DNA of 64,000 nt from IMG/VR virus record IMGVR_UViG_3300033146_003848, positions 82,141-146,140 of that record; one strand, 5' to 3'. The position numbers were made by a program, and so were the translations under genes. This DNA comes from a virus. The notes below the pieces were generated by a model. The model was not told the DNA's origin. It ran no database searches and worked only from the letters and a program-made list of their open reading frames with translations. Positions within the stretch are counted from its first letter, which is position 1, and each line of letters begins with the position of its first letter. Below are positions 12,282 through 34,101 of the stretch, in pieces.

Positions 12282-12509
12282 ATGAAAAAAATAAAGATTT
12301 ATGATGTAGAATATTGGGAAGATGATAATTATAATAGATGGTCTAATTGCACTAAACAACAGGCTCAAGATATGTCCGACTCTTTATTGAATTGTTATAA
12401 TTGCGAAAATTGTCAAATATGTACCAATTGTTCTTCTTGTGTATTTTGTTATAATTGTTTAAACTGCAATAACGCAATAAATGAAGTGAATGGCAGAGAT
12501 ATTGGATAA
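12282..12509 (+). CDS. CxxC-repeat protein, shortest of four paralogues
   Basis: 75 aa. Same architecture as the proteins at 25096, 26576 and 33748(-): an N-terminal module reading ...VEYWEDDNYNRWSNCT, then a run of cysteines every third residue (ten in all). The regular C-x-x spacing could bind several metal ions or build a narrow solenoid held by disulfides; neither is shown. TAGGAG site. Confidence 0.75.
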   Translation: MKKIKIYDVEYWEDDNYNRWSNCTKQQAQDMSDSLLNCYNCENCQICTNCSSCVFCYNCLNCNNAINEVNGRDIG

Positions 12510-12675
12510 CACACTAAATAAAATAAAAAAACTTGCAGATTTAATATCCAAGAATAAGTTTCAATCATTCAAATCATATAGGTTGCCATTTATCAAAACA
12601 CCTAATAGTTCATGTGTGATTTATAACATGAAAGAATATAAACAATTGATATTAATTGACACGGATAAAAAATAA
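12490..12675 (+). CDS. Hypothetical small protein, 61 aa
   Basis: Overlaps the CxxC gene by 20 nt and runs into the next promoter. The ribosome site is poor (only GAAGTGA). Basic, no family recognised. Could be a chance frame. Confidence 0.35.
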   Translation: MAEILDNTLNKIKKLADLISKNKFQSFKSYRLPFIKTPNSSCVIYNMKEYKQLILIDTDKK

Positions 12676-12684
12676 TGCTATAAT
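12656..12684 (+). promoter_or_regulatory. Early sigma70-like promoter with 5' hairpin (copy 2)
   Basis: TTGACA at 12656-12661, 17 nt, TATAAT at 12679-12684; hairpin at 12691-12714. Nearly identical to the unit at 10638 from -35 to start codon, although the genes behind them are unrelated. Confidence 0.85.
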
Positions 12685-12747
12685 ACTTATATGAAACAAT
12701 CGTTTTTGTTTCATGAGTTTTAAAAATTTAAATGATGGAGATTTATT

Positions 12748-13371
12748 ATGAAGAAATTCACACAAAAATTACTAGATAATTTTGATAGTTCAAAGGAGAA
12801 CTATCACCAACAAATTTTAGATGTTGCATATGATGCTTGGACAACAGATATGGAGTGGACATATGCCGACATGATAGATAATACTATTGAGCAATTTGGT
12901 CAACTTACTGCTCTATTAGTGTTAGTTGGCAAATTTAATCAACAAGTTACAAATGGGGGTCATATTCAATATATAATGAATGATTTTGCATCAAGAGGAT
13001 CTAAGTATGATTTAGATATTCATAATAAAATGATATCATTGATGAGTAGCACTTATTTGAAGCCTTGTGACAACTATGATATGATATTAAAAATTATGCG
13101 GTCATTAGATGTGGTTTATTATCCATCTGAGTATGAAACTGAAACTTGTTCTTCGTGTGGTGGAAGTGGAATGAGTGATTATGGAGAAGAGGATGAGGAG
13201 TGCGATGATTGTTGTGGGACAGGAGAAATAGAATTTCTTAATGATGAGGAGTTCGTACATAACGGAGAACATTTAGATGAACAATATTATGAGGTGTATG
13301 AAGATTGGCTTCAATCAATCGAAAAGTTATTGCATCATATGCCTGAATTAAATGGAGAGAATCATGAGTGA
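12748..13371 (+). CDS. DMP19/DUF4375-like protein with DnaJ-type zinc knuckles
   Basis: 207 aa. Residues ~60-80 (FNQQVTNGGHIQYIMND) fit the VxNGGxxQYxxN signature of DMP19-like proteins; a baculoviral-type DNA mimic is the name-giving member, but most relatives are uncharacterised. From base 13146 there are two DnaJ-style knuckles, CSSCGGSG and CDDCCGTG, which would bind one zinc. The combination is unusual. The C-terminal part is very acidic. Good GGAG site. Confidence 0.6.
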   Translation: MKKFTQKLLDNFDSSKENYHQQILDVAYDAWTTDMEWTYADMIDNTIEQFGQLTALLVLVGKFNQQVTNGGHIQYIMNDFASRGSKYDLDIHNKMISLMSSTYLKPCDNYDMILKIMRSLDVVYYPSEYETETCSSCGGSGMSDYGEEDEECDDCCGTGEIEFLNDEEFVHNGEHLDEQYYEVYEDWLQSIEKLLHHMPELNGENHE

Positions 13372-13801
13372 TATATCCGTGTATCAAATGGCAATTAATA
13401 ATGCCTCAAATTATATCGTAGCCTTAAATAACCGAATGAGTGCTGATGATCCAAGACGAGATGCTGAAATTGGAATTTTTGATATTACATCGGTTTTAGA
13501 AATCATCTTTTGTAAGGCAAAAGAAGAGATTGCATCCGATATTATTAAAACTGTGAATGATATTAGTCCTCAATCGACAATAGAAACTAGAAGTCCTAAG
13601 CAAGAGGTACGAATATTATTCCATAACATTGAGATTGATTGGGAAAAAGGGAATTATGAGGTGTATGATATTGGAGAAGATGATAAAAAACAAATAATAG
13701 ATAAAATGATTGATGGTGAGTGTGCGGGAATCATACGAATTGCCGAAAATGATTCCAGTGAAGTTTTAATTGGACATTGGACTATTAAAGGAGATAAATG
13801 A
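13364..13801 (+). CDS. Hypothetical protein, 145 aa, paralogue of the gene at 13985
   Basis: Shares with the gene two positions downstream an N-terminal helical part, a central LFH(N/D)IEI-x-WE segment and an end reading (V)GxWxI+. Start ATG 13364 uses GGAGAG and overlaps the DMP19-like gene by 8 nt. Family unknown; a local tandem duplication is clear. Confidence 0.65.
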   Translation: MSDISVYQMAINNASNYIVALNNRMSADDPRRDAEIGIFDITSVLEIIFCKAKEEIASDIIKTVNDISPQSTIETRSPKQEVRILFHNIEIDWEKGNYEVYDIGEDDKKQIIDKMIDGECAGIIRIAENDSSEVLIGHWTIKGDK

Positions 13802-13995
13802 TGAATCAAATTGATAGAGACCTTCATATGAAAGTATACCGTTTAATTGAGAAAAATTATACTCCTCTAGATACTGCTCATATGGTTTGGGAAAAAATAA
13901 AGAGTCACTTCACTGAGGATAGAGAGACTCGAATTATAATGACTAGTCGGATCGGAAGATGGATTGAATGGGAGGAATGTAATTATGATGAATGA
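13798..13995 (+). CDS. Hypothetical protein, 65 aa
   Basis: Lies between the two paralogues, overlapping both. AAGGAG site. Helical, tryptophan-rich. No family recognised. Confidence 0.6.
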   Translation: MMNQIDRDLHMKVYRLIEKNYTPLDTAHMVWEKIKSHFTEDRETRIIMTSRIGRWIEWEECNYDE

Positions 13996-14419
13996 AATTT
14001 CAACAAAGGATTATATTAATGCGATTACAGCCATAGCGAATCACATTATGAGTCCTGAGTTTGTACATGAAAATAAAGAGAATCGACTTGATGTGGAGAA
14101 TGTTACCGAAGTATTGTCAATTATATATCATAAATCGAAAATGCATATATCCAATGATATTGTAAAAAAGATATCAGAATTTTGTTTATTGGACAAGGAA
14201 TCAAGTGAATTTACTCAGGTCATTGAAGTATTATTTCATGATATTGAGATCTGTTGGGAAGGTCATGTGACTTCAGTAGACCTTCATCCGTTAGATTATA
14301 AACTTATTGAAACTCTCATTATAAAGGCTTCTAATAAAGGACCCATCACAGTTCCTTATATTGATATTCAGGGCGAACAACGCTATTATGTTGGAGAATG
14401 GAGAATCAGAAAATGTTAA
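13985..14419 (+). CDS. Hypothetical protein, 144 aa, paralogue of the gene at 13364
   Basis: Central VLFHDIEICWEG and terminal YVGEWRIRK line up with the paralogue. ATG 13985 is set by GGGAGG at 13970-13975. The N-terminal halves have diverged strongly, so the duplication is old. Confidence 0.65.
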   Translation: MMNEISTKDYINAITAIANHIMSPEFVHENKENRLDVENVTEVLSIIYHKSKMHISNDIVKKISEFCLLDKESSEFTQVIEVLFHDIEICWEGHVTSVDLHPLDYKLIETLIIKASNKGPITVPYIDIQGEQRYYVGEWRIRKC

Positions 14420-14604
14420 TTTGTCCTATATGTAAATCTAGTGTTGAAATGAAACGATCCGATGAAAATGATTTTTTATTTACTTGTACCAATCAATGCT
14501 TTAAAAATATTTCTATTTTCGCACATTCGGATTTAGAAGCAAAAGGCTTTTGGTTAGGGAGAAGTGCTGAAATAGTTTCTAGTGAGTTGAGAAACAATCA
14601 ATAG
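14413..14604 (+). CDS. Lar-like zinc-ribbon protein, 63 aa
   Basis: MLICPICKSS at the start and FTCTNQC about 20 residues later give a CxxC...CxxxC ribbon; the length and a final aromatic segment (GFWLGRSAE) in place of the usual AIxxWNxR resemble Lar-type restriction-alleviation zinc ribbons. Lar proteins modulate type I restriction. Similarity is weak, so the role is speculative. The start uses the GGAGA inside the end of the previous gene. Confidence 0.45.
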   Translation: MLICPICKSSVEMKRSDENDFLFTCTNQCFKNISIFAHSDLEAKGFWLGRSAEIVSSELRNNQ

Positions 14605-14710
14605 TAACATATCACTTTTGTTGTTTTTGTTGTTATACGAGTAACCTAGAGTATGAGAATTGAGCCTAATTAATCAATAAAATATATTATATTCATTATT
14701 TCAATATTAT

Positions 14711-14739
14711 TTGATTTGAGTGATTATTTATGTTATAAT
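14711..14739 (+). promoter_or_regulatory. Early sigma70-like promoter
   Basis: TTGATT at 14711-14716, 17 nt, TATAAT at 14734-14739 with TGT before it. Bases 14605-14710 hold nothing else recognised. Confidence 0.7.
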
Positions 14740-14787
14740 TAATGAATGAAAAAGTTTTTCATTATTATTAATTTATTTGAGGGAAAA

Positions 14788-15105
14788 ATGAATATAAAAT
14801 CTATTATTCAATCGGGAAAAATTATTCGAACAAATGAAGGATTGTATACAACTGATGAGGAGTTATGGTTAGAATGTGAAATAGAAATTTTAATAGAGAC
14901 TCCAATTCAAGAGACAGACTTGGAGTCTATATTTGATACCTCTCCTGAAATATTTTATAAATTCATAGAGTTTGATGTTTATGATAAGGTTCAAGTCGAA
15001 TTGCATTCTAATCATATAGAAATTCTTATTATTTTTGAAGCATATGAACCTTTTCAAACTGATCCTGAATATGATTCGTTAGAATTGGATTATTGGAAAC
15101 ATTAA
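14788..15105 (+). CDS. Hypothetical acidic protein, 105 aa
   Basis: ATG 14788 with GAGGGA upstream; the in-frame ATG at 14746 coincides with the expected transcription start. Rich in E/I/Y, low in basic residues. No family recognised. Confidence 0.65.
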   Translation: MNIKSIIQSGKIIRTNEGLYTTDEELWLECEIEILIETPIQETDLESIFDTSPEIFYKFIEFDVYDKVQVELHSNHIEILIIFEAYEPFQTDPEYDSLELDYWKH

Positions 15106-15107
15106 AT

Positions 15108-15136
15108 TTGACTTGGTGTTAAAATTGTGATATACT
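15108..15136 (+). promoter_or_regulatory. Early sigma70-like promoter
   Basis: TTGACT at 15108-15113, 17 nt, TATACT at 15131-15136 with TGA before it. Confidence 0.8.
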
Positions 15137-15173
15137 ATATATGTAATTATGATTAATTATTATTATGGAGTAA

Positions 15174-15611
15174 ATGATGAAAAAAGAAGACATTGTTATT
15201 GATTTAGAATCCTCAAGAACATTTAAAGTGGAATGTATTTGGGAAGAAAATGAATTCGTTTGTGTGGTCGGATACGAAGACCGAGAAAACTTTTGGCGAG
15301 TAGGATATATATTGTTGCCTTCGAGTAACACTTTCTATGAGAGAGATTATGATGACGACCGAGTTAAAAATTTGGAAGTGTATGGAGGAATAACATATGC
15401 GAATCATTTAAGTAAATCTATATTTAAAGACCTCATATCAGTCAAAGATGATCTTTGGCTACTAGGGTTTGATGCAGGACACGGAGAAGATGGGTTATCC
15501 TTAGAGTTCATGAAAGATGAAATGAAATCTTTAGCGAGTCAAATATTTACCAAAGAATCTGAACACGCCTTCGATGTGTTAAATGACATAATATTTTCAA
15601 AAAAGAATTGA
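15174..15611 (+). CDS. Hypothetical protein, 145 aa
   Basis: ATG 15174 or 15177 behind TGGAG. The first 60 residues look like a beta-barrel with many aromatic and acidic residues. No family recognised. Single-gene transcription unit between two promoters. Confidence 0.65.
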   Translation: MMKKEDIVIDLESSRTFKVECIWEENEFVCVVGYEDRENFWRVGYILLPSSNTFYERDYDDDRVKNLEVYGGITYANHLSKSIFKDLISVKDDLWLLGFDAGHGEDGLSLEFMKDEMKSLASQIFTKESEHAFDVLNDIIFSKKN

Positions 15612-15636
15612 CTCGGTTGACTTTATATGTTATACT
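15608..15636 (+). promoter_or_regulatory. Early sigma70-like promoter with 5' hairpin
   Basis: TTGACT at 15608-15613, 17 nt, TATACT at 15631-15636 with TGT before it; imperfect hairpin at about 15647-15669. The -35 overlaps the stop of the preceding gene. Confidence 0.85.
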
Positions 15637-15687
15637 ATTAATATAAACACTTGATAAAGTATTGAGTGTAACTTAATGGAGAATATC

Positions 15688-15960
15688 ATGATTTTAAGTA
15701 CCGAAATGCAAGATACTATCGAAGAGTTAACTGGAGTTTCTGTGCAAGCCTTACATTATAATGATGAGGAGATTTCGTTTAAACAAAATGGAATCTGGCG
15801 AGACATGGAAATGAAAACCTTTTCTGACATCAATCGTCGGTTTAAAATATCAAAACAACCTGACAAAAAACAGAACTTTTATTATATAAGTCGGGGATCT
15901 GAAGCGTTTGACCTGATGATTTTGATTAATGATTTTAGCAATGCGATAATTGAGATTTAA
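15688..15960 (+). CDS. Hypothetical protein, 90 aa
   Basis: ATG 15688 behind TGGAGA. No family recognised. Confidence 0.6.
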   Translation: MILSTEMQDTIEELTGVSVQALHYNDEEISFKQNGIWRDMEMKTFSDINRRFKISKQPDKKQNFYYISRGSEAFDLMILINDFSNAIIEI

Positions 15961-15961
15961 C

Positions 15962-16132
15962 ATGGTGAGTTCATGTAATATGTTTAAGTTCTCAACAGTC
16001 CATCAACAACATAACACTTCGGGCTGTGAGTATTCTATCACTGAAAATCATGTGACACCATCTATAGAATGGGCAAAATATAACGATTATAAAAAATTTA
16101 AAAAAAGTGAATTAAAGTTTGACACGGATTAA
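15962..16132 (+). CDS. Hypothetical small protein, 56 aa
   Basis: Begins one base after the previous stop; weak GAG as ribosome site. Its last codons lie under the -35 of the next promoter. No family recognised; may be coupled or may be a chance frame. Confidence 0.4.
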   Translation: MVSSCNMFKFSTVHQQHNTSGCEYSITENHVTPSIEWAKYNDYKKFKKSELKFDTD

Positions 16133-16147
16133 ATAATATGTTATACT
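16119..16147 (+). promoter_or_regulatory. Early promoter with hairpin and AGTC/GACT leader
   Basis: TTGACA at 16119-16124, 17 nt, TATACT at 16142-16147 with TGT. The transcript has a first hairpin (AAACA / TGTTT) from about 16156 and, before the ribosome site, the leader GAGTCAGACAAGAC...ATCGGAGAG (16192-16220) that recurs at 24160 and 28236. Confidence 0.85.
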
Positions 16148-16225
16148 ATTATTATAAACAATTGATTTTGTTTGTATGTTTATTAATTTTTTGAGTCAGA
16201 CAAGACGTTAAAATCGGAGAGTATT

Positions 16226-16522
16226 ATGGGATTTATAGTTAAACTTATCGATAAAGACAATTCGATTCGAGAGGATGAATTTGCGACTGCGATTAAAGAA
16301 CTGAAGCCTGAATTTAATAGTGATATTAAAGAAAAATCAGGAGTGTTCATTCATTTGGACTCAAATGAAATTGAACTCAAGAATGGAGTAGTTAAAATAT
16401 TTGGGTCATTTACTACTATGGGAGATGAGATTGAAGGACTAATTTTAAATTTACTTTTAAATTTACAAAAGTTCGGATATAAAATAGAAGTTATTTGCCC
16501 AGAATTAGGGTATGAGAGTTAG
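16226..16522 (+). CDS. Hypothetical protein, 98 aa
   Basis: Strong ATCGGAGAG leader site. Alternating helix/strand composition, no family recognised. Followed by a strong hairpin. Confidence 0.65.
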   Translation: MGFIVKLIDKDNSIREDEFATAIKELKPEFNSDIKEKSGVFIHLDSNEIELKNGVVKIFGSFTTMGDEIEGLILNLLLNLQKFGYKIEVICPELGYES

Positions 16523-16532
16523 ATTATTAAAC

Positions 16533-16558
16533 TGAGGACTTCAATAATGAAGTCCTCA
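16533..16558 (+). terminator. Hairpin (10-bp perfect stem)
   Basis: TGAGGACTTC / GAAGTCCTCA with a 6-nt loop, no U-run. The next gene follows without a promoter, so it is likely an attenuator or processing signal. The stem core resembles the terminator at 28936. Confidence 0.55.
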
Positions 16559-16577
16559 ACAACGTAAGGAGATTATT

Positions 16578-17204
16578 ATGAGTATGAGTGACACAAAACA
16601 AAAATTAAATTTTTTATTAGACAATTTAGAGTTGGCAGATTATTTTGGTTCAAGAGATGTGGATAGAGTGTATGGTGCGGTATATAAAAAACTAATTCAA
16701 AATGGAGTATTAGTTAATAATTTAAGATTTACTCAAGGGAAAAATGTTTTACCTTTTGAAATTGATAAAACTGAAAGTATAAAGGACAATATTACTAGAA
16801 TTAAAACATATCTTCTTAGTAAGGTTGATAATTCAGAAAGGAGACTACGAGAGTGGACAGCATTCCATACAATCTATAGTTGGAGATACATTAAAGTGTC
16901 CAATCTTTCTCGTCTCAAAAATGGAAAAGTGAAAATCAAAGGTAACTTTGATGCGGCAAATGATTTAATTGAGATTTTAGGCTATATCCAAAGTGATGAG
17001 ATACCAAAAGACTTAGGGTTTTCATATGGTGTATTAGACTATGCTAGAAAGCAAAATGTCCCTTTAGATACTCATGCGGTAGATGTTATTCATTTTACAG
17101 TATCATATAAAAGAGGCTCATTTGAAATAACAGGAATGGATGATGCTCAAGTTCAACAATTAAAGGATATTCTTTCTAATAATGAGATACAAATGATGAG
17201 GTAA
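16578..17204 (+). CDS. Hypothetical protein, 208 aa
   Basis: AAGGAG site. Helical N-terminal half, mixed C-terminal half. No family recognised. Heads a run of six tightly packed genes to 18602. Confidence 0.7.
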   Translation: MSMSDTKQKLNFLLDNLELADYFGSRDVDRVYGAVYKKLIQNGVLVNNLRFTQGKNVLPFEIDKTESIKDNITRIKTYLLSKVDNSERRLREWTAFHTIYSWRYIKVSNLSRLKNGKVKIKGNFDAANDLIEILGYIQSDEIPKDLGFSYGVLDYARKQNVPLDTHAVDVIHFTVSYKRGSFEITGMDDAQVQQLKDILSNNEIQMMR

Positions 17205-17209
17205 TTATC

Positions 17210-17449
17210 ATGAAAGAGTATTATGAATTGGTTGACAATCAAACTATTTCTTCGAATAAGAGGTTTATTAAATGTATTTGTTCTGAATGGCATCCAATCG
17301 TTCGGAATAATATGAGACGACTTACAGTCACTTGCCCGTTCTTTGGAATAATTGGAACGGGCAAAACAAATGGAGATTTAAAACGATCTTGGAGAAAAAA
17401 TAGTGAGTTGTGGATAAAAAATGAACTTTTAGTTGAGGAGGGATTGTGA
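17210..17449 (+). CDS. Hypothetical protein, 79 aa
   Basis: Basic, with three cysteines and a GTGKT stretch too short and isolated to be a P-loop. The stop overlaps the next start (GTGA). Confidence 0.6.
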   Translation: MKEYYELVDNQTISSNKRFIKCICSEWHPIVRNNMRRLTVTCPFFGIIGTGKTNGDLKRSWRKNSELWIKNELLVEEGL

Positions 17450-17736
17450 TTATGAAAAAACAATGTTTAATGAATAAAGAAGAGGTTGTTCATTTTGAAA
17501 GTGAAGGACGAGATCATATTTATTTCAATTTGGAATCTTGGGAAGTTTTAAGTCAATTGACAAAGTATCATTGGCAACATAAGATGTTAGAAGAACCATT
17601 AAGAGAATTTTGTAAACAATTGTTCCCACATTTGGAAATATTTCAAGTAAAGGTTCAAGAAACATATTTTGTTAAAATGAATCAATTAGGGCGAGGTACA
17701 TTATTTATAACAATAAATCCACAAGATGAGGATTAA
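17446..17736 (+). CDS. Hypothetical protein, 96 aa
   Basis: GAGGAGG at 17434-17440 fits GTG 17446 (spacing 5) better than ATG 17452. No family recognised. Confidence 0.6.
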   Translation: MIMKKQCLMNKEEVVHFESEGRDHIYFNLESWEVLSQLTKYHWQHKMLEEPLREFCKQLFPHLEIFQVKVQETYFVKMNQLGRGTLFITINPQDED

Positions 17737-18037
17737 TACATTGAGATATACAACAAATGAAATTATTGGTAATTGTAGAATTTTAATACCTAATAAAATT
17801 AATAGTCCTTGTACGTTGCAATTTATTTTAAATTGGATCGGAAAGACTGCCTGTTCAGAAGATGTATCTTTGATTAATTTGAATCAACAATCTAATGGTT
17901 ATCAAATTGAGGTTTTAAATAGAAATACAAGTGAAATAACTATTTTAGGTCAAATTATAACAAAAACTCAAATTTCTGAAAATGATTTTATTTCAGAAAT
18001 AGGATGTAAAATATCAATTAACAAATGCGGAGAATAA
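17726..18037 (+). CDS. Hypothetical protein, 103 aa
   Basis: Starts inside the preceding gene; TTG 17741 behind GAGG is an alternative start. Rich in N/I/S with two cysteine pairs far apart. No family recognised. Confidence 0.55.
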   Translation: MRINTLRYTTNEIIGNCRILIPNKINSPCTLQFILNWIGKTACSEDVSLINLNQQSNGYQIEVLNRNTSEITILGQIITKTQISENDFISEIGCKISINKCGE

Positions 18038-18038
18038 T

Positions 18039-18308
18039 ATGAAAAGTTTAAAGAGTCTGGAAAAATGCAAACCTTATACTAGAAATAGACCACTAAAAGA
18101 TATAGGAATGAAAGTTAATGTGAAAGGACAAATTGTTCAGTTCTTACAAGAAGATGATGGACTCGATTTAAGTCCCATTCTCGCCAAATATAACGATTGT
18201 ATTGTATATAGTGGTCGTAATGAAATCGAGGATCTATTGAATATGGAAGATTATGTGCCTGTGTTTTTTGAAACTGAGGCGTATAGTTCATTCAACTTCA
18301 TGAATTAG
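18039..18308 (+). CDS. Hypothetical protein, 89 aa
   Basis: GCGGAG site one base after the previous gene. Basic start, acidic end. No family recognised. Confidence 0.6.
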   Translation: MKSLKSLEKCKPYTRNRPLKDIGMKVNVKGQIVQFLQEDDGLDLSPILAKYNDCIVYSGRNEIEDLLNMEDYVPVFFETEAYSSFNFMN

Positions 18309-18317
18309 GAGAAGATT

Positions 18318-18602
18318 ATGAAAAATTTAGAGCAAGAGTACTATCTAACTTTTGAGGACACGATTAGAGAACGAGTTGTTATTCTGGTTGTAGATAAAAA
18401 TTCATTAAGCGGGAGTTATATGTTTGCCTTTAGTGAGAATGCTAATTCGAATAGTGATTTATGGAGACATTGTAATTATGCCACGAAAAGTGCAATAAAA
18501 CAAAAAATTAAGAATATTAAAAATGATAAGTCCTTAATTATCATTTCTGAAGAATTCCCCACAAACAATAAAGTTATGGAAATACTTGACGTGGTATCAT
18601 AA
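18318..18602 (+). CDS. Hypothetical protein, 94 aa
   Basis: TAGGAG site. No family recognised. Its 3' end contains the -35 of the next promoter. Confidence 0.6.
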   Translation: MKNLEQEYYLTFEDTIRERVVILVVDKNSLSGSYMFAFSENANSNSDLWRHCNYATKSAIKQKIKNIKNDKSLIIISEEFPTNNKVMEILDVVS

Positions 18603-18614
18603 ATGTATTATACT
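18586..18614 (+). promoter_or_regulatory. Early sigma70-like promoter
   Basis: TTGACG at 18586-18591, 17 nt, TATACT at 18609-18614; here without the extended TGn. Confidence 0.75.
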
Positions 18615-18667
18615 ATATAAGACATTGAAAAAAATATCATTGATTAATTATAAAAAAGGAGAATACT

Positions 18668-19087: not shown

Positions 19088-19088
19088 A

Positions 19089-19496: not shown

Positions 19497-19503
19497 AAAA
19501 TAT

Positions 19504-25095: not shown

Positions 25096-25422
25096 ATGAG
25101 AAAAATAGTAACATGGGTTGACGATAATGGAAATTCTTGGTCAGACTGTACTGAGAGAGAGGCAATCAAGAAGTCTAAGACCCTTAGAAATTGCACTAAT
25201 TGCAAAGATTGCACCTATTGTGTGAATTGCACAAATTGCACTAATTGTACTGAATGTGGGAATTTAGACGGTTGTGAACATTGTCACCAATGTGTGAATT
25301 GTAATAATTGTTTTCACTGTGATTATTGCACTGATTGCACCGACTGCAAAAATTGCACTAAATGTTTAGAGATTCGTGTTTCTAATGGTTCTAATTACGT
25401 TAACGTGAAACGAGGAGAATAA
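25096..25422 (+). CDS. CxxC-repeat protein, 108 aa
   Basis: N-terminal module (VTWVDDNGNSWSDCTEREA, then an IKKSKTL helix) followed by about twenty cysteines spaced every third residue through residue 95, broken once by GNLDG. Filling residues are mainly N, D, T and K. ATG 25096 behind TAGGAG. Second of four paralogues. Possible multi-metal binder or disulfide-stapled solenoid; no known family matched. Confidence 0.8.
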   Translation: MRKIVTWVDDNGNSWSDCTEREAIKKSKTLRNCTNCKDCTYCVNCTNCTNCTECGNLDGCEHCHQCVNCNNCFHCDYCTDCTDCKNCTKCLEIRVSNGSNYVNVKRGE

Positions 25423-25793: not shown

Positions 25794-26483
25794 ATGAATG
25801 GAAAGGAATTAATGCGAGGATATCATTGCACAAAGGCAACAGTCTTGATGTGGGTCTCACACGGTCTTCCACACGAAGGAGAAATATTCTCTAAAATGTC
25901 ATTCGATGCCAATGAAGTAGAAAAATGGTTAATAGAGAATAAAGTCATGAATCATTGGACAACCCAGGAATTAAAACAAAATTATAACCTCAAAAAAAGA
26001 CAGTACGACGTTTGGAGAAGTCACGGACTCCCTGAACAAAAAAGTCCCCTGTTCCCAAAAAGTATGAGAGTATATAATATCCTCGAAGTAGAACAATGGG
26101 TGTTAGAGAATGATGCCCTAAATTTCCACGAATCAAAGTCGACAACCAACGATATATGTGCCCGATATAATATCACTAGAGCCGCAGTCTCACTATTCAT
26201 CAAACAAGGACTCCCAAATGAAAAGACAATATATGGCCTCCGTTACGATATGAATGAAGTACACAAATGGATGATTAAGAATAATAAAGTCAACGGGAAA
26301 AAGAATCGCAAAAAGAAAAGGCAATCAGAAACAAAAGAAGACCTCATCATCACACTAAAAGGCCTCAATAAGTGGAAAAGTGATTGGCAAAAAAGAGGTG
26401 TTGATGACTCCAATAAAATTCAATCGTTGAATAATTTAATTGAAGGTGTGAAAAAAGACTTAGAAAAATTCGATAAATGTTGA
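25794..26483 (+). CDS. Protein with three tandem HTH units (copy 2)
   Basis: 229 aa, paralogue of 23432: units around LMRGYHCTKATVLMWVSHG, ELKQNYNLKKRQYDVWRSHG and DICARYNITRAAVSLFIKQG, each with the aromatic closing helix. A lysine/arginine stretch (KKNRKKKRQ, ~residue 170) and a helical tail follow. ATG 25794 is chosen because GGAG at 25784-25787 precedes it. Likely a DNA-binding regulator or partition/packaging-type factor; each copy sits next to CxxC genes. Confidence 0.7.
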   Translation: MNGKELMRGYHCTKATVLMWVSHGLPHEGEIFSKMSFDANEVEKWLIENKVMNHWTTQELKQNYNLKKRQYDVWRSHGLPEQKSPLFPKSMRVYNILEVEQWVLENDALNFHESKSTTNDICARYNITRAAVSLFIKQGLPNEKTIYGLRYDMNEVHKWMIKNNKVNGKKNRKKKRQSETKEDLIITLKGLNKWKSDWQKRGVDDSNKIQSLNNLIEGVKKDLEKFDKC

Positions 26484-26508
26484 CTCGGTTGATATTATAT
26501 GTTATAGT
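26480..26508 (+). promoter_or_regulatory. Early sigma70-like promoter with 5' hairpin
   Basis: TTGACT at 26480-26485, 17 nt, TATAGT at 26503-26508 with TGT. Hairpin AAGTCA / TGACTT at 26524-26539. Confidence 0.85.
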
Positions 26509-26575: not shown

Positions 26576-26929
26576 ATGCAAAAAATTGTAACACAAAAAA
26601 TGATATACTGGCAAGACGACAACGACAACAAGTGGTCAGACTGCACTGAAGAAGAAGCCATTGAGAAGTCTAAGACCCTCAAAAATTGTACTAATTGTAC
26701 CGACTGCGAACGATGTGAAGACTGCCATGATTGTGAGAATTGCACAGACTGCAGATGGTGTGTAGATAGTGCCAATGCGTCCTTTTGCGAAGACTGCACC
26801 GATTGCAACCATTGTTCAGGATGCGAATCTTGTATAAAGTGTAACAATTGCGAAGACTGCATTGGTTGCGATGAATGTGAACAAAGTGAAGGTCTTGCGA
26901 ATGAATATCAAAGTGTCGGAAAAGAATAA
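26576..26929 (+). CDS. CxxC-repeat protein, 117 aa
   Basis: Same module order as at 25096 (IYWQDDNDNKWSDCTEEEA, SKTL helix, then the cysteine run). About 21 cysteines, mostly every third residue, with one interruption (DSANAS). Fillers are more acidic than in copy 25096. ATG behind AAAGGAGAG and its own promoter, so it is expressed separately. Confidence 0.8.
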   Translation: MQKIVTQKMIYWQDDNDNKWSDCTEEEAIEKSKTLKNCTNCTDCERCEDCHDCENCTDCRWCVDSANASFCEDCTDCNHCSGCESCIKCNNCEDCIGCDECEQSEGLANEYQSVGKE

Positions 26930-27539: not shown

Positions 27540-27918
27540 AATTTACTGCATCCTATTCCCTCTTCATATTAGTCCATCCAAATAACCGCAACCCATCCAA
27601 TGAAAATCACCATTTTTTGTCCGTCCAATGTCGAACCAATACGTGTGTTGTTGCGTGTAGACAAATTAAACCGTCCGACCATTACCAACCAATACCAACC
27701 AACCAATACCAACCAACCAATACCAACCAATACCAAATTATCCATTGTCGACTTATAAAATATAGGGATCCTCAATTAATCATTTTCAATACTATTAATT
27801 GGTCCTCATTTTTTACCATAAGGACCTCCAATTTCTTATAATTTATAGGCGACTTTTGTTTGTTTTTTTGGTCTTCATCCTTTTTCCTTATATAAGGCGA
27901 ATTACTTATATGGAATAT
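27540..27918. other. Non-coding stretch with CCAA-type repeats
   Basis: No gene with a ribosome site. Contains the tandem repeat listed separately and several dispersed CCATCCAA-like words. Cytosine-rich on the + strand, unlike its neighbours. Confidence 0.6.
27683..27736 (+). repeat. Tandem TACCAACCAA-type repeat
   Basis: About five imperfect 10-14 bp units made of ACCAACCAAT and TACCAACCAA. Translations of this stretch in any frame are low-complexity and lack ribosome sites. Confidence 0.8.
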
Positions 27919-27947
27919 TTGACAGGGTCATTTAATTATGATATACT
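27919..27947 (+). promoter_or_regulatory. Early-type promoter without a gene behind it
   Basis: TTGACA at 27919-27924, 17 nt, TATACT at 27942-27947 with TGA. The next 200 nt hold no ribosome-site-bearing gene but several stems, so it probably makes a small RNA. Confidence 0.8.
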
Positions 27948-27953
27948 ATTAAA

Positions 27954-28136
27954 GTGAGTGAGACTTTTTGTTTTTTCAACACTCACCCTGGTTTCCCTTA
28001 ACCGATAAAATTAAGGGACCCTGCGTACTTGTGATGATGGATCCTATTAGTGATTGCCTTGGGCGTGACGCGTTGAAGGTGACTTCGACTTTTAGGATCC
28101 TCACTTTAATGACAATTGTAAGGGCCAGTGCGAATA
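27954..28136 (+). ncRNA. Candidate structured small RNA
   Basis: Begins at the expected start of the promoter at 27919. Stems visible: GTGAGTG (27954-27960) with CACTCAC (27980-27986); TCCCTTAA (27994-28001) with TTAAGGGA (28011-28018); GGATCCTA (28039-28046) with TAGGATCC (28093-28100), enclosing GAAG/CTTC at about 28076-28087. GC is higher than the surroundings. No terminator is clear; the 3' end is set by the next promoter. Confidence 0.5.
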
Positions 28137-28155
28137 AAAATAAAAGTCATTTTAT

Positions 28156-28184
28156 TTGACTTGGTTGTTTTATTGTGTTATAAT
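28156..28184 (+). promoter_or_regulatory. Early promoter with hairpin and AGTC/GACT leader
   Basis: TTGACT at 28156-28161, 17 nt, TATAAT at 28179-28184 with TGT. Hairpin AAACAAT / ATTGTTT at 28193-28214, then the GAGTCAGAAAAGACT leader and ATCGGAGA. Confidence 0.9.
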
Positions 28185-28266
28185 ATGTATATAAACAATT
28201 GAAATTGATTGTTTGTGTTTTTAATACTTTTTTGAGTCAGAAAAGACTATAACATCGGAGACTATT

Positions 28267-28917
28267 ATGAGTGAAGTAAAAAAAGAAATCGTTAATGGCA
28301 ATGAGGCTCCAATTGTACACGGCATTGATTCATTAGAGGCTGAAATGAATGCGATGAACGGTATTCCTGTTGAGGTGTCTAAGAAGTCTATCAAATTAAA
28401 AGGGACTGCAAGGGTCGAGAGGCCTGTTCCTAGAGAGCCGAAGAAGAAATTGAAGATGGCTGCACATGCAAAATTTTTTAAGGCGAATGGTGGAAAGAAG
28501 AATGCGGATCAATTGAAAGTGAATTACAAAATGGTTGCAGAGTGGGTTCGTAGTATCATTGAAATTTACAACGTGAAGGATCACTTTGAAGTACATTGTA
28601 AGAGGAGTAAAAAGGACGTAAAGAACGTGGACTTCAATAAGGACGTTGCAGTGAGTAAAGAGAACCCTCGTACAGTGAAGAAAGAAGTGTATGCGGTTGT
28701 TTTTAATCGTAAAGAGGGTGATGAAGTGATTGAAGTACGCAAGGATCAATACAAGTCAGAAGAAATGTTGGTTAGGTCTCTCGCAAATATGGTGTACTTT
28801 GCGACTGCGAAAGTAAAAGAGTACGCGGCTGACCATAAAATTGAGCCACAATACGAGAAAAAAGTGGCTACTGAGGCTAAAACAGTGAAAGAGACTGTGT
28901 CCAACGAAAAGAAGTAA
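28267..28917 (+). CDS. Lysine-rich basic protein, 216 aa, probably highly expressed
   Basis: Lys makes up a large share of residues, with a proline/lysine linker (RPVPREPKKKLK) near residue 55. Codon choice differs from the neighbours (many GCG, CGT, GTG, AAG), the gene has a consensus promoter and an intrinsic terminator, all of which suggest strong expression. No family recognised; a nucleic-acid-binding protein is the simplest guess. Confidence 0.7.
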   Translation: MSEVKKEIVNGNEAPIVHGIDSLEAEMNAMNGIPVEVSKKSIKLKGTARVERPVPREPKKKLKMAAHAKFFKANGGKKNADQLKVNYKMVAEWVRSIIEIYNVKDHFEVHCKRSKKDVKNVDFNKDVAVSKENPRTVKKEVYAVVFNRKEGDEVIEVRKDQYKSEEMLVRSLANMVYFATAKVKEYAADHKIEPQYEKKVATEAKTVKETVSNEKK

Positions 28918-28935
28918 TCATTAGGACTATTATGA

Positions 28936-28971
28936 AGTGAGGACTTATTCAGTCCTCACTTTGGCTTTTTT
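28936..28971 (+). terminator. Intrinsic terminator
   Basis: 10-bp stem AGTGAGGACT / AGTCCTCACT, 5-nt loop TATTC, then TTGGCTTTTTT. Confidence 0.85.
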
Positions 28972-29639
28972 CGTATTGATTCCCTATTAGGACGGACTCC
29001 ACTTAGGGAGGTAGGGTGTGGGACGAAGGCTCTCAATTAATATAGTGGAAATAGTGTATGCCCTTTTCATTAATGGGTATTAGTGGTTGACTTGTATGCA
29101 ACGATAAAAAATTCTTAATAGTAAAGTGCAAGTGAAGTAATTTTTGTTCTTAAAGTCACACTATCATATATTGTTGGTCATTATATTGATTCGCCGGTTC
29201 GTCTGTGTCGCGAAAGGGCACGTACTTAGTAGTATAGTATTGATGAATCCTGTGTTTTTATGGGAACGAGTGCCGGTTTCCCTTAACCATCGAGGATCCT
29301 GGACTTATGGTCAATGGATATGCGTGTTTGCGAGGATTGGATCCATTTAGGACGGACTCCACTTAGGACGGTCGAATTCGGGATAAAATTGGAAACCGGC
29401 ACGGTTGAAATCATTAGAGAAAATCGTCACTAGGACTTGTTTATATTGGACTGATAGGATTTGAGTGGACTTTTTCGTTTTCGCCTCGAGGTGATCCTAT
29501 TTCTTGGGTTGGATGGTTGAATGGTTATGAGTACTTAGTGGTAACCGACTTTTTATTGATTTGAGTCGGATTTGTATGGTGTTGCCGGTTGAAATCATTG
29601 ACGGATTTCGTCACTACACAATTGGTTGGAATTTTCACT
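28972..29639. other. Non-coding stretch with dispersed repeats
   Basis: No gene with a ribosome site. Contains two copies of TTAGGACGGACTCCACTTAG (about 28988 and 29348), two of GGTTGAAATCATT...TCGTCAC (about 29402 and 29588), and GGTTTCCCTTAACC at 29268-29281, also present at 27991 inside the candidate RNA. Higher GC than elsewhere. Confidence 0.6.
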
Positions 29640-29921
29640 TTATTTGATGATTCCCATTCGTTCGAATTCGAAGTCTACGGCTTCGTTGAAGGATGACTTG
29701 TACAATTCATCAATTTGTTCTTGTAATATTGTCATTCTCAAGTGGGACCTTCCGATATCACGGAGTTGCATGGTTCGTTCTTCATAGAACAATTCTTTTG
29801 TTTCGAAGTCTTCGGGTTGCATAATCCTTACTACTTCTGTGAGTACTTTTGCGGCCCTTTGGTTTCCGAAGTACTCTCTTTGGAGGTCTTCCATTTTTGT
29901 TTTGTCGTGGTGATTCATCAT
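29640..29921 (-). CDS. Hypothetical helical protein, 93 aa
   Basis: GAGGGA site before ATGATG. Charged, predicted all-helical, likely coiled coil. No family recognised. First - strand gene, facing back into the non-coding stretch. Confidence 0.65.
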   Translation of the reverse strand: MMNHHDKTKMEDLQREYFGNQRAAKVLTEVVRIMQPEDFETKELFYEERTMQLRDIGRSHLRMTILQEQIDELYKSSFNEAVDFEFERMGIIK

Positions 29922-29989
29922 TTTACTTCCCTCATCATACTAAATTAATAATCAATTGAAAGTAACACTATTGATACTTTCATAATAAT

Positions 29990-30018
29990 AGTATAACATA
30001 TAATATCAACCGAGTCAA
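29990..30018 (-). promoter_or_regulatory. Early sigma70-like promoter with 5' hairpin
   Basis: On the - strand TTGACT (30013-30018), 17 nt, TATACT (29990-29995). Hairpin GAAAGTA / TACTTTC at 29958-29981. Divergent from the promoter at 30052; the unit is shared with 31894 and 32327. Confidence 0.9.
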
Positions 30019-30051
30019 CGTTATAATGAATTATTTTAAATTATTATTTTA

Positions 30052-30080
30052 TTGACACGGTTGATATTATATGTTATTAT
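30052..30080 (+). promoter_or_regulatory. Early sigma70-like promoter
   Basis: TTGACA at 30052-30057, 17 nt, TATTAT at 30075-30080 with TGT. Confidence 0.75.
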
Positions 30081-30137
30081 TGACTCGTATTATTAATATT
30101 GATATTACAAACGATAACAACAAAAAGGAGACTTATT

Positions 30138-30362
30138 ATGACTAATGCAGAAATTAAACAAGTACTTAATGAAAAAATGGAATTGATGGAACGCCACTAC
30201 AAGAACAGACTTATTACCGAGGAAGTGTGGAAAGAAGTACTAATCATGGACAATTACTATAAGAAAATTGTAAAGAATTACGCCTTCGCACTTCGTCAAC
30301 GCCAAAAACAAATTGAAGAAACGTATGATCCTAGAAGTCGTAAGAAAAGTAATGAAATATAG
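30138..30362 (+). CDS. Hypothetical basic protein, 74 aa
   Basis: ATG 30138 behind AAGGAG. Helical, basic, ends in RSRKKSNEI. The only + strand gene between 29 and 41 kb; converges on the - strand operon. Confidence 0.65.
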   Translation: MTNAEIKQVLNEKMELMERHYKNRLITEEVWKEVLIMDNYYKKIVKNYAFALRQRQKQIEETYDPRSRKKSNEI

Positions 30363-30366
30363 TAAA

Positions 30367-30564
30367 TTATATAACGATTAATTCTAAAAGTCCACACTTA
30401 ATTATCCCAGAAGTCAACGTCATATTTGGTATATTCATTTGACTATTAATTGTTTGATCGATGGCTTCACTTAAGTCCTTTGTGTTTATGTTAATTGTTT
30501 TGTTTGATACCATCACTTTATCATTGACTTGGAAAGTCCTTTTGACTAATAGGCTAAATTGCAT
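30367..30564 (-). CDS. Hypothetical protein, 65 aa
   Basis: ATG at 30564 behind GGGAGA, overlapping the preceding gene by 11 nt. Resembles 33217 in the segment DLSEAIDQTIN / DLHEAIEKVLQ, so the two may be distant paralogues. Last gene of a five-gene operon. Confidence 0.6.
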   Translation of the reverse strand: MQFSLLVKRTFQVNDKVMVSNKTININTKDLSEAIDQTINSQMNIPNMTLTSGIIKCGLLELIVI

Positions 30565-30739
30565 CCTTGATTCTCCCTGTTTCCTTGAATTGTAAGTACT
30601 TTTTAATATCATTGATGGTGATATGGTCAAGTATACCATAGGCATTCTTTGTATTCATTGTTCCGGACCCTTCAATTAACGTTGTTGTTGCCAACATTAT
30701 TTGATTTAATTGGGTATCATTCATTTTATTTTGTTGCAT
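30554..30739 (-). CDS. Hypothetical protein, 61 aa
   Basis: AGGAGG site. No family recognised. Fourth gene of the operon from promoter 31568. Confidence 0.6.
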   Translation of the reverse strand: MQQNKMNDTQLNQIMLATTTLIEGSGTMNTKNAYGILDHITINDIKKYLQFKETGRIKDAI

Positions 30740-30752
30740 AATTTCCTCCTTT

Positions 30753-31004
30753 TTAATATATTAAGTGACCATTTTTAAGGCGATGAATAAATTCTTTCAT
30801 TGCATTAGTGATGGTTTTTACTTCAATTTTTTCTGTCTCAGTCCATTCATCAGTAATATCCTTGATTAACAAGTCTACGTTTCCCTCTTCATCACTCAAT
30901 TGGTGATAATATGCAAACAAGAATGACTTGGCATCATATGAGAATTTTGTGTCCCTTAATTTCTTCAAGAAAGTCCTTTTAGTCGTTGTTGTTTTAAATA
31001 ACAT
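30753..31004 (-). CDS. Hypothetical protein, 83 aa
   Basis: ATG at 31004 behind TGGAGG. Starts MLFKTTTTKRTF, helical. No family recognised. Confidence 0.6.
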   Translation of the reverse strand: MLFKTTTTKRTFLKKLRDTKFSYDAKSFLFAYYHQLSDEEGNVDLLIKDITDEWTETEKIEVKTITNAMKEFIHRLKNGHLIY

Positions 31005-31017
31005 AATGACCTCCATT

Positions 31018-31263
31018 TTAAATTGTTCCCTTCACGTACTCAGTGAAGGAGAATGCAAATATTTCTGATTCATTGGCATCATCCAATGAATATACTTCTA
31101 GGCTTTCCAAGAAGTCAATCACTTCTTCTTCCCCATACTTTTCACCATACACTTCACAAATGGAATCGGCAATACTTTCCAATTCATAAACCTCATTGAC
31201 TTCCACACAGTGACAGTAATGTCCATTCCTTTCCTCAAGTACTTCTTCGAAAATCATATTCAT
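31018..31263 (-). CDS. Hypothetical acidic protein, 81 aa
   Basis: ATG at 31263 behind AAGGAG. Very acidic (EVYGEKYGEEEVIDFLESLE). No family recognised. Confidence 0.6.
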   Translation of the reverse strand: MNMIFEEVLEERNGHYCHCVEVNEVYELESIADSICEVYGEKYGEEEVIDFLESLEVYSLDDANESEIFAFSFTEYVKGTI

Positions 31264-31342
31264 TTTATTCTCCTTCAAATTGTTATTCTCATCATAATGC
31301 AAGGATCATTCCACTATTGAAATGACCCTTCGTTGTTGTACC

Positions 31343-31501
31343 CTAATTATACTTTCTGACCATTTCTTCGATGATCATTTTAATCGTCCTTGTTTCCTCT
31401 TCAGACTCCTTTGTCTTGGTGATGATTGCAAAGTGGCTTAATTTATCATACTCGTCTAATGAGTATGCGACTTTGTGGTTTTGAATCGTTGTTGTTAACA
31501 T
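31343..31501 (-). CDS. Small protein, 52 aa
   Basis: First gene behind promoter 31568; CGGAGG before the ATG at 31501. Opens MLTTTIQNHKVAYS and ends in a charged helix with MVRKYN. No family recognised. Confidence 0.6.
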   Translation of the reverse strand: MLTTTIQNHKVAYSLDEYDKLSHFAIITKTKESEEETRTIKMIIEEMVRKYN

Positions 31502-31567
31502 GATAGCCTCCGTTTTAAGTAATCAATAATCAATTGATAGTAACACTATTGTTACTATCATAATACT

Positions 31568-31596
31568 AGTATAACATATAATATCAACCAAGTCAA
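31568..31596 (-). promoter_or_regulatory. Early sigma70-like promoter with 5' hairpin
   Basis: - strand TTGACT (31591-31596), 17 nt, TATACT (31568-31573). A strong hairpin TGATAGTAAC / GTTACTATCA (about 31535-31560) begins the RNA. Confidence 0.9.
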
Positions 31597-31829
31597 TTAC
31601 TTTTGTTGATATACTCTAAAAAATTAATTGACACTTGCCCATATTGAATGTCGCAGACTCCGTCTCCTATTAACGCCTCTCTGTGATACTTGTCGACTAC
31701 TTCACCATCATGCCTCACTATTTGGTTAATAAATTCATTTTCTGCGGCATCCCTATCGTGAAAGTCAAACACGAATTGGTCATTCACTTGATTTTTATAC
31801 GTTACGGTTACAACAATTACTTTCATCAT
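31593..31829 (-). CDS. Hypothetical protein, 78 aa
   Basis: ATGATG behind AAGGAGA. Beta-rich start (KVIVVTVTYKN). Ends within the -35 of the next promoter. No family recognised. Confidence 0.6.
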   Translation of the reverse strand: MMKVIVVTVTYKNQVNDQFVFDFHDRDAAENEFINQIVRHDGEVVDKYHREALIGDGVCDIQYGQVSINFLEYINKSN

Positions 31830-31893
31830 AAGTCTCCTTTCTTCTAAATTAATAATCAATTGAAAGTAACACTATTGATACTTTCATAATACT

Positions 31894-31922
31894 AGTATAA
31901 CATATAATATTAGCCAAGTCAA
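31894..31922 (-). promoter_or_regulatory. Early sigma70-like promoter (duplicated unit, copy A)
   Basis: - strand TTGACT (31917-31922), 17 nt, TATACT (31894-31899). From here to the start codon ~95 bp are essentially identical to the unit at 32327-32355. Confidence 0.9.
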
Positions 31923-32031
31923 TTAATTTATGTTTGAAGTAAAAAAATTCAAATAAGTGTTACTTTTCTTTGATTGTTTTTGATTGTCTGGGACTTGATT
32001 TTTGAGTAATATTGAAGTACTTTACTTTATG

Positions 32032-32262
32032 TTATTGATACTTTTCGAAAATAGGAAGTGAGACTTCATTACCGTGTATTACACTATCATCATAATTCAA
32101 GGAGTCCGAATACACTTTGTTATTAATAAGGGCCATTCTTCGTCGTCGGTTCTTTTCCATATTAATGATGAAATTATTTCCCCTCACTTTCCATTCATCA
32201 TTGGTTAACCTCATTTGATTCACCAATATCATCAAGTCTTTTCTTTTAGGCATTACCATCAT
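32032..32262 (-). CDS. Hypothetical basic protein, 76 aa
   Basis: ATG at 32262 (or 32259/32253) behind AAGGAGA. Basic (MPKRKD, KNRRRR). No family recognised. Confidence 0.6.
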   Translation of the reverse strand: MMVMPKRKDLMILVNQMRLTNDEWKVRGNNFIINMEKNRRRRMALINNKVYSDSLNYDDSVIHGNEVSLPIFEKYQ

Positions 32263-32326
32263 AAGTCTCCTTTCTTCTAAATTAATAATCAATTGAAAGT
32301 AACACTATTGATACTTTCATAATACT

Positions 32327-32355
32327 AGTATAACATATAATATTAGCCAAGTCAA
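32327..32355 (-). promoter_or_regulatory. Early sigma70-like promoter (duplicated unit, copy B)
   Basis: - strand TTGACT (32350-32355), 17 nt, TATACT (32327-32332), hairpin GAAAGTA / TACTTTC following. Confidence 0.9.
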
Positions 32356-32439
32356 CGTTATATGAAAGTATTTTTTGATGATCGGTTAGGTACCTAACCA
32401 ATGGAGAGGGCCCAAGTAGGACGGTTGAAAGTCACCTCA

Positions 32440-32471
32440 GAAACCGGCACTCTGTGACGAGTGCCGGTTTC
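32440..32471 (-). terminator. Strong hairpin at end of - strand operon
   Basis: 12-bp perfect stem GAAACCGGCACT / AGTGCCGGTTTC with an 8-nt loop, two bases beyond the stop at 32473. No U-run, but very stable. Confidence 0.65.
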
Positions 32472-32472
32472 C

Positions 32473-32754
32473 CTATCCCGTTATATACTCAATTCCATGG
32501 CTCTCACAATGACACTTTTGACTAGAGTCGTTCGCCTCATATATGTCATCACCACTCACTTCTACTGAGTCAGTGGACTTATAATAGTATATGTAATTAG
32601 CCTTCATTGTCGCACTCTCCCAATTCCACTTATTAATAATGGTCAGGAAGTCTTCTACTTTAAAACACCACACTTTTTGTTCTAACCCTCGATTATAGTA
32701 AGTGAATTCCCTATAATTACATAAGTACATTGCATCTGCCTTTGATATTAACAT
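32473..32754 (-). CDS. Hypothetical protein, 93 aa
   Basis: GGGAG site; start overlaps the previous stop (TAATG). Four cysteines, ends CHCESHGIEYITG. No family recognised. Confidence 0.6.
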   Translation of the reverse strand: MLISKADAMYLCNYREFTYYNRGLEQKVWCFKVEDFLTIINKWNWESATMKANYIYYYKSTDSVEVSGDDIYEANDSSQKCHCESHGIEYITG

Positions 32755-33143
32755 TAGTGTCTCCCATGTCGTCTGTTATCAAGCCTCATTTGTTCCGTTT
32801 TTAATATTACTTTATTCATTAACCATACAGGAATTGTTAGTATTCCACCCAATATCACGTTGAAGGTTGACGTAAACAAAAACAAATTGAACCAAGGAAT
32901 TTCAAAGAAAGGAGTATGATAGTGTGTTCCAACAATTAAAACGCCAAAGTATGCCGCAGAAAACGTTCCTGAAATAATATAGGGCAATGGTCCTGCAATA
33001 AGTATTATTATCATTGCCCAAAGTCCCATATATATATTCCAATCGTCTAATGGAATACCACTAAATGCACCTGTTGATAAGTACACGTATGGTCCCAAAA
33101 TTATTAATATTGCAATTAGTCGCCATTTGATAAAGTCCCACAT
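32754..33143 (-). CDS. Polytopic membrane protein, 129 aa
   Basis: Three to four hydrophobic segments (about residues 7-27, 37-58, 61-78, 88-112). ATG at 33143 lies in TGATG with the preceding mini-gene's stop; GGAGA upstream. No family recognised. Coupled on both sides, so part of the operon from promoter 33723. Confidence 0.65.
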   Translation of the reverse strand: MWDFIKWRLIAILIILGPYVYLSTGAFSGIPLDDWNIYMGLWAMIIILIAGPLPYIISGTFSAAYFGVLIVGTHYHTPFFEIPWFNLFLFTSTFNVILGGILTIPVWLMNKVILKTEQMRLDNRRHGRH

Positions 33144-33220
33144 CACTTTCTCCGTTTTCTAATTGGAGGTCGTTTTTTGAATAAGTCTAGTAAAGTCTTT
33201 TTGCGTGGCCTATTTCTCAT
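33143..33220 (-). CDS. Basic microprotein, 25 aa
   Basis: GGAGA site before ATG at 33220 and TGATG coupling to the membrane protein gene support translation. Twelve of 25 residues are K or R (opens MRNRPRKK, ends RKRRK). It could bind RNA/DNA or act as an internal leader. Confidence 0.55.
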   Translation of the reverse strand: MRNRPRKKTLLDLFKKRPPIRKRRK

Positions 33221-33447
33221 AATATTCTCCTTTTATGTAAGTCGTCCTTATTGAATTTAATAATTCTACCTCCGACTTTCTGATGTCGGTAGTGAATTTC
33301 TTCATTAAGGAGAACCAAGTCTTCCATAGTGTGATTTTTTGCCTGTAATACTTTTTCGATTGCCTCGTGCAAGTCGTCTGTATTGACTTGCACTATTTCA
33401 CAGGTTTCCAATAAGTCGTATTGTTTTTTAATTTCCAATTCAATCAT
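33217..33447 (-). CDS. Hypothetical protein, 76 aa
   Basis: ATGA overlaps on both ends. Contains NTDDLHEAIEKVLQ, similar to a segment of 30367. No family recognised. Confidence 0.6.
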   Translation of the reverse strand: MIELEIKKQYDLLETCEIVQVNTDDLHEAIEKVLQAKNHTMEDLVLLNEEIHYRHQKVGGRIIKFNKDDLHKRRIL

Positions 33448-33644
33448 AATATTCCCATGCCTTTTAATTCACACTTGATTTTCGCAGGTACTTCAGAGAG
33501 TGATACTTTGGTTTCCATCACTTTCCAATAAGTGCAACGACCATACTCATACATTTCTCTCATAGTCTCGTCTGCCTCTTCTTGATTGTTGTAATAGCCG
33601 ATTCCAATGATTCCAATTAAGGCGATAAGTAATACTTTCTTCAT
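33444..33644 (-). CDS. Small protein with N-terminal membrane anchor, 66 aa
   Basis: KK then a hydrophobic stretch (residues 4-18), then a soluble charged part with two cysteines. ATG at 33644 behind ATCGGAGA leader. First gene of the operon. Confidence 0.6.
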   Translation of the reverse strand: MKKVLLIALIGIIGIGYYNNQEEADETMREMYEYGRCTYWKVMETKVSLSEVPAKIKCELKGMGIL

Positions 33645-33722
33645 AATAGTCTCCGATTTTAAAGTCTTCTCTGACTTAAAAATTAATAAAACAAACAATC
33701 AATATCGATTGTTTATATATAT

Positions 33723-33751
33723 AGTATAACATATAAAAGTAGCCAAGTCAA
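33723..33751 (-). promoter_or_regulatory. Early promoter with hairpin and AGTC/GACT leader
   Basis: - strand TTGACT (33746-33751), 17 nt, TATACT (33723-33728); hairpin AAACAATC / GATTGTTT; then a leader with GTCAGAGAAGAC and ATCGGAGACT, the same type as at 24160. Confidence 0.9.
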
Positions 33752-34101
33752 TTAATTATTGAGAATTGTGATGATGGTGTCGCATTATCAATACCATTCT
33801 CATTCAAACAATTTGAACAATCAGAACACTCTTGGCAATTATCACAATTTAAACACCATTGACAATACGAAAGGCTCGTGCAATCGGTACAGTCATATGA
33901 ATATGATACATTTTTACAATTGATGAGCCTTGTCGAGTAATAACAATGGTGACTTCTTGTGCAGTCAGTGCAATTGGTGCAATCAGTACAATTGTCTAAT
34001 GAAGAAGACTTCTTAATTGCCTCTTCTTCAGTGCAGTCTGACCATTTGTTGTTGTTCTCGTCTTGCCAATATTCCACGTGGTTCAATATTACTTTTTTCA
34101 T
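33748..34101 (-). CDS. CxxC-repeat protein, 117 aa, - strand member
   Basis: N-terminal module VEYWQDENNNKWSDCTEEEA nearly the same as at 26576, then about 16 cysteines, several positions replaced by H, Y or S. Equal length to the 26576 protein. ATG at 34101 behind AAAGGAG. Shares a transcript with the HicB-like gene upstream. Confidence 0.8.
   Translation of the reverse strand: MKKVILNHVEYWQDENNNKWSDCTEEEAIKKSSSLDNCTDCTNCTDCTRSHHCYYSTRLINCKNVSYSYDCTDCTSLSYCQWCLNCDNCQECSDCSNCLNENGIDNATPSSQFSIIN

Follow-up and report, generated by a model that had tools for sequence, protein, structure and literature searches.

The beetle antifreeze protein TmAFP (PF02420; PDB 1EZG) is a solved right-handed beta-helix with coils of 12 residues, of which residues 2, 5, 8 and 11 face inward, and C2 and C8 are joined by a disulfide in each coil (PMC8038014). 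In the pentapeptide repeat proteins (PF00805; e.g. MfpA and Qnr) each coil is formed from four repeats, according to the review PMC8145042, and further beta-solenoids are represented by the YdcK/hexapeptide proteins (PF18836, PF00132). Here, a set of four viral proteins is described in which cysteine recurs at every third residue (Cys-x-x) behind a conserved N-terminal module (N-module). The likeness to TmAFP would lie in having one residue in three directed inward, half of these being Cys in the antifreeze protein; TmAFP differs in being secreted and disulfide-bonded, in its ice-binding TxT face, in having only two Cys per coil and in being devoid of the N-module. The 12-residue TCTxSxxCxxAx repeat of insect antifreeze proteins does not occur in the family, the predicted inward-every-third register being the only common feature. 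Pentapeptide arrays form solenoids ahead of the same C-terminal domain (domain A) in phage proteins, but are composed of five-residue A(D/N)LxX units with other core residues. Similarly, the YdcK/hexapeptide proteins have a second C-terminal domain (domain B) in common with Cys-array proteins, but differ in having GNAxVxGDA repeats, no Cys array and a different N-terminal domain. Both the N-module and the Cys-x-x array are present in PHROG 15341, which comprises proteins of the Campylobacter phages CP220, CPt10, CP21 and IBB_35 and their relatives; the four proteins described here are 33–43% identical to its members and shorter than some of them.

Four cysteine-array genes and their setting

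The window, meaning the whole 64,000-nucleotide stretch of DNA that was analysed, closes a virus record of 146,140 bases, of which it makes up the final 64 kb. The record is that of a T4-like myovirus, and the C-terminal part of its tail sheath shows 33% identity to the Campylobacter phage counterpart. A preliminary description had listed four open reading frames (ORFs) sharing an N-module and then a strict Cys-x-x register, and these were confirmed, with between 9 and 22 register positions (slots) in each (Table 1). No fifth family match was found in the whole 146-kb record. Residues W12, D14, N16, N18, W20, S21, C23, T24, A28, S32 and L35 of the N-module are invariant in the four copies, and one extra Cys, inside the module, also falls in the array register. 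An AGGAG-type ribosome-binding site lies directly 5' of the ATG in all four copies, and copies 1–3 sit amid tightly packed small ORFs on the plus strand. Promoter-like sites in the region number 21, against 9.4 expected.

Table 1. Cysteine-array genes of the window and an associated promoter-like site
Feature	Position	Strand	Length (aa)	Cys	Layout	PHROG 15341 (E)	N-module profile (bits)	Remark
Copy 1	12282..12509	+	75	10	N-module ~residues 1–37; 9 Cys-x-x slots (C38–C62, all Cys); short tail	4e-9	31.4	
Copy 2	25096..25422	+	108	20	N-module ~residues 1–32; 20 slots (19 Cys, L57); tail	2.8e-10	37.3	
Copy 3	26576..26929	+	117	21	N-module ~residues 1–37; 22 slots (20 Cys, S65, A68); acidic tail	4.9e-14	39.0	modelled with AlphaFold2
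Copy 4	33748..34101	-	117	16	21 slots (15 Cys, S50, S56, L59, V65, S68, L77)	2.5e-11	35.8	most degenerate copy
Promoter-like TTGACT-17-TATAGT	26480..26508	+						5' of copy 3; based on consensus alone

Extent of the family and authenticity of the register

Sequence comparison places the window genes in a large and essentially undescribed family that extends beyond one phage. All four proteins were matched by PHROG 15341 (E 4e-9 to 5e-14), which is annotated as of unknown function, whereas Pfam and NCBIfam returned no credible match for them and the anti-phage defence models of PADLOC no match. There was likewise no Pfam match to PF00805, with its tandem series of at least eight A(D/N)LxX repeats. 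The earlier statement that no described family has this layout is thus supported as far as curated families are concerned. A description of the family was not found in the literature, subscription journals lying outside the coverage.

Relatives were found in Campylobacter phages of the genus Firehammervirus, in IMG/VR (more than 100 stretches, with at least 120 viral stretches in one scan) and in assemblies from bacteria of several phyla. Up to 15 copies occur per phage, this being the number of matches in the 127-kb record IMGVR_UViG_3300028572_000010 (L175, L189; G011); many of the 15 are located in one cluster, which constitutes a natural system in which to study array turnover. Two family copies are present on a single contig of Helicobacter sp. 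10-6591 (NZ_NHYK01000009.1; L315, L325), together with ORFs that are relaxase-, recombinase-, ParA-, ArdC- and primase-like as read from their translations, and these copies are probably carried by a mobile element, which the neighbouring ORFs suggest to be integrative or conjugative. When relatives were sought with the N-module only, 78 of 80 had at least six register Cys, and the remaining two had four or five before the sequence or frame ended, indicating that the N-module and the array travel together. At 22 of the 80 loci (L486–L565) the frame exits the fetched sequence within or just past the array. Arrays seem to break assemblies, and the family is probably under-counted.

The productive search pattern consisted of the end of the N-module plus seven Cys. 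A pattern that had the N-module as its anchor gave no matches, a search for relatives with protein P0003 alone found none, and tblastn of P0002 against phages and of P0004 against plasmids found nothing. Matches of phrog_15341 to Campylobacterales genomes were mostly low-complexity and out of frame, while phrog_14105 matched other proteins, two with Ala-rich repeats, in genomes of the phylum of locus L312. A match in Flavobacterium phage FL-1 (KY421186, L011:3734-4438) resembled an artefact, the annotated frame reading VAPIAP, but proved to be a true Cys array in another frame. This frame holds an ORF of 234 aa in which the Cys-x-x array has a different N terminus before it and the start of domain A after it, and domain A runs on in a different frame; the deposited VAPIAP-repeat protein is likely to be a wrong-frame annotation.

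That the array itself stems from a DNA repeat of 9 bases or from out-of-frame reading, and is thus an artefact, is barely conceivable for the window genes, even though many matches to a bare Cys-run pattern, and most of the weak Campylobacterales matches that were read, proved to be out-of-frame repeats. All of the Cys in each window protein fall in a single three-residue register, which was matched by none of 20,000 shuffles of each protein. The profile search with the N-terminal module that had been proposed in the preliminary description was run without help from the array, employing a profile of 96 other sequences from which the window was left out and the arrays removed; the window modules scored 31–39 bits, compared with at most 11 for 2,000 shuffles, which confirms homology. 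Tandem repetition at the DNA level is weak (about 68–88% matches over short stretches) and usage of TGT and TGC is mixed (37:30), indicating that the register is maintained at the protein level. Codons were then compared between relatives at least 75% identical, excluding the seven slots that the search pattern itself dictates: Cys codons were identical in 719 cases, with 33 silent and 2 non-silent differences, as opposed to 808, 216 and 374, respectively, for spacer codons, the pairs in both counts not being independent. These counts indicate that selection preserves the Cys while the spacers vary freely, which at the family level contradicts the relaxed selection suggested earlier. Collectively, homology of the N-module with arrays removed, the ribosome-binding sites, codon-level selection and the weak DNA repetition exclude an artefact for the Cys-array family.

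Predicted fold and the role of the cysteines

Many relatives have a C-terminal domain downstream of the Cys array. Most fetched loci have domain A (motif WHTCxTTHCRAGW...) behind a Cys array, but at loci L478–L480 it follows pentapeptide repeats (PF00805, E down to 2e-44) in proteins with a different N-terminal domain, the pentapeptide and Cys-array versions of domain A being 56% identical over 96 aa. Domain B (motif IGSRN...CGCFxG...) lies behind Cys arrays and, in Chryseobacterium phage MA9V-1 and Bacteroides phage BF766P1, behind solenoids of the YdcK/hexapeptide type. The same PHROGs (31265; 7964 and 20532) span the Cys-array and other-array kinds. The shared domains thus indicate that three types of array, two of them known beta-solenoids, fill the same place in related proteins, and by analogy the swap with pentapeptide and hexapeptide rods would permit the fold of the Cys array to be predicted. 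Neither domain A nor domain B is present in the window proteins, to which the swap argument therefore extends only via the common N-module and array.

The reading preferred here, to which a probability of about 0.6 is assigned, is that the proteins form a thin, cytoplasmic beta-solenoid rod with a core of cysteines, the role of the Cys being mainly structural. The N-module, comprising strands and a helix, would cap the first coil, and each Cys-x-x triplet would supply one side of a narrow coil, the Cys being directed inward and the polar x-x pair outward. The likeliest geometry would be a coil of about 12 residues, or four triplets, like that of TmAFP. With 87 relatives, AlphaFold2 predicted the N-module confidently (block means 89–96) and, at low confidence, placed one beta-bridge per three residues throughout the array, with values dropping from 81 to 35–57; a single-sequence prediction of P0003 had a pLDDT of 43, and Foldseek gave no PDB match. 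In the autocorrelation of the spacers, even lags and four triplets were slightly preferred, too weakly to be decisive for coil length. The solenoid suggested in the preliminary description is thus favoured by the AlphaFold2 model and by array exchange, but its three residues per turn are not, since there are probably about 12 per coil. If this three-residue repeat does place Cys in almost all of its inward positions, no beta-solenoid known to us would be shorter or more thiol-dense.

The best PDB match of the family profile was TmAFP (E 2.6e-4, with 44 bits of composition bias). Since this match is composition-biased it is regarded as analogy rather than homology; PF02420 gave no match at E 0.1 among 93 members scanned, and the depositors of CPt10 recorded insignificant insect-antifreeze Pfam matches on the family relative in that phage. 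The match, together with the C2–C8 pairing of TmAFP in the same register, could feasibly denote a disulfide-stapled rod that is exported or built into the virion, in the manner of the beetle protein. This seems quite improbable, given that no secretion signal was seen in the translations, that copies 1–3 lie among packed small ORFs as opposed to beside tail genes, and that the family is also present on non-phage mobile elements. A cytoplasmic location is instead suggested by the model, in which the N-module begins at the start Met and leaves no space for a secretion signal. In the presumably reducing cytoplasm, the Cys of the cored rod would serve mainly as a small core residue and be mostly reduced.

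The main rival to a structural core is that metal ions or Fe-S clusters are bound in a row via Cys-x-x-Cys pairs, with the array acting during infection as a store, electron path or trap. The spacing Cys-x-x-Cys-x-x-Cys is that of the ligands of [4Fe-4S] ferredoxins and of many zinc sites, and the Cys are under strong purifying selection, both of which count in favour of this rival. The preliminary description had also invoked replacements by H, Y and S in copy 4; S does occupy slots in that copy, but H and Y are located in spacers, the replaced slots holding S, L and V, and the argument for metal ligands is not supported. Among 54 replaced slots in diverse arrays, S was found in 22, L in 15, F in 4, G in 3, D in 1 and H in none. 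A Leu codon is at least two mutations from TGY. Additionally, array lengths are evenly spread over remainders of 2, 3 and 4. The replacements and the length spread fit inward core positions better than metal ligands, and domains A and B appear to function behind arrays free of Cys; metal binding is accordingly unlikely, and is not the favoured reading. A particular form of it, in which stacked Cys columns within the rod hold a continuous line of metal ions or Fe-S units in the reducing cytoplasm, as a genetically encoded metal-thiolate wire or metal trap of tunable length, is a slender prospect. The extreme Cys content, and the low AlphaFold2 confidence over most of the array, might alternatively reflect a disordered thiol-rich peptide, either metallothionein-like or a redox-buffering thiol sink. 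Such a sink would not need the strict register, which extends over up to 76 slots, some slots are occupied by Leu, and the arrays are exchanged with solenoids, all of which render this explanation very unlikely.

If the cysteine-cored rod is correct, its most likely function, by analogy with pentapeptide rods (review PMC8145042), would be that of a protein-binding or decoy surface, or else of a spacer, the rod being made inside the host. It would act like pentapeptide and YdcK-type rods, its polar surface, long and quick to change, serving to bind or decoy a host component. Rapid change in the spacer residues and the presence of multiple copies would fit such a surface if its partner were variable and the two were in conflict. 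DNA mimicry was considered but is not proposed: although 77% of members have a net negative array, the charge is mild (median -0.13 per triplet), and copy 2 has a pI of 6.3. The family is common, and its recognition places unannotated mobile-element proteins beside the pentapeptide and hexapeptide rods, such that the function of the rods and of their common C-terminal domains becomes testable together. If the thiols are reduced, they would represent an unusual way of building a protein core; if they carry metal, the family would be a new kind of metal protein.

Other features of the window

Four related ORFs of 461–544 aa are located amid tail genes between positions 54070 and 62255 (54070, 56275 and 60729 on the plus strand; 58443 on the minus strand). 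The ORF at 54070 matches the homing endonuclease family phrog_3339 (E 6e-53), and the other three are similar by eye. A 100-base stretch is duplicated with 98% identity at 10634-10733 and 12652-12751, directly 5' of the ORFs at 10730 and 12748, and is possibly a shared early promoter or leader; copies at 16091-16173 and 35276-35297 are weaker. The second of these ORFs (12748-13371), two genes past copy 1, encodes a DnaJ-like CxxCxGxG pair and matches phrog_9961, annotated as of unknown function. Between 35000 and 40000 the G+C content falls to 25%, and several minus-strand ORFs in this interval have a common repeated leader, DFKNRKIIMKK, in the extended frame.
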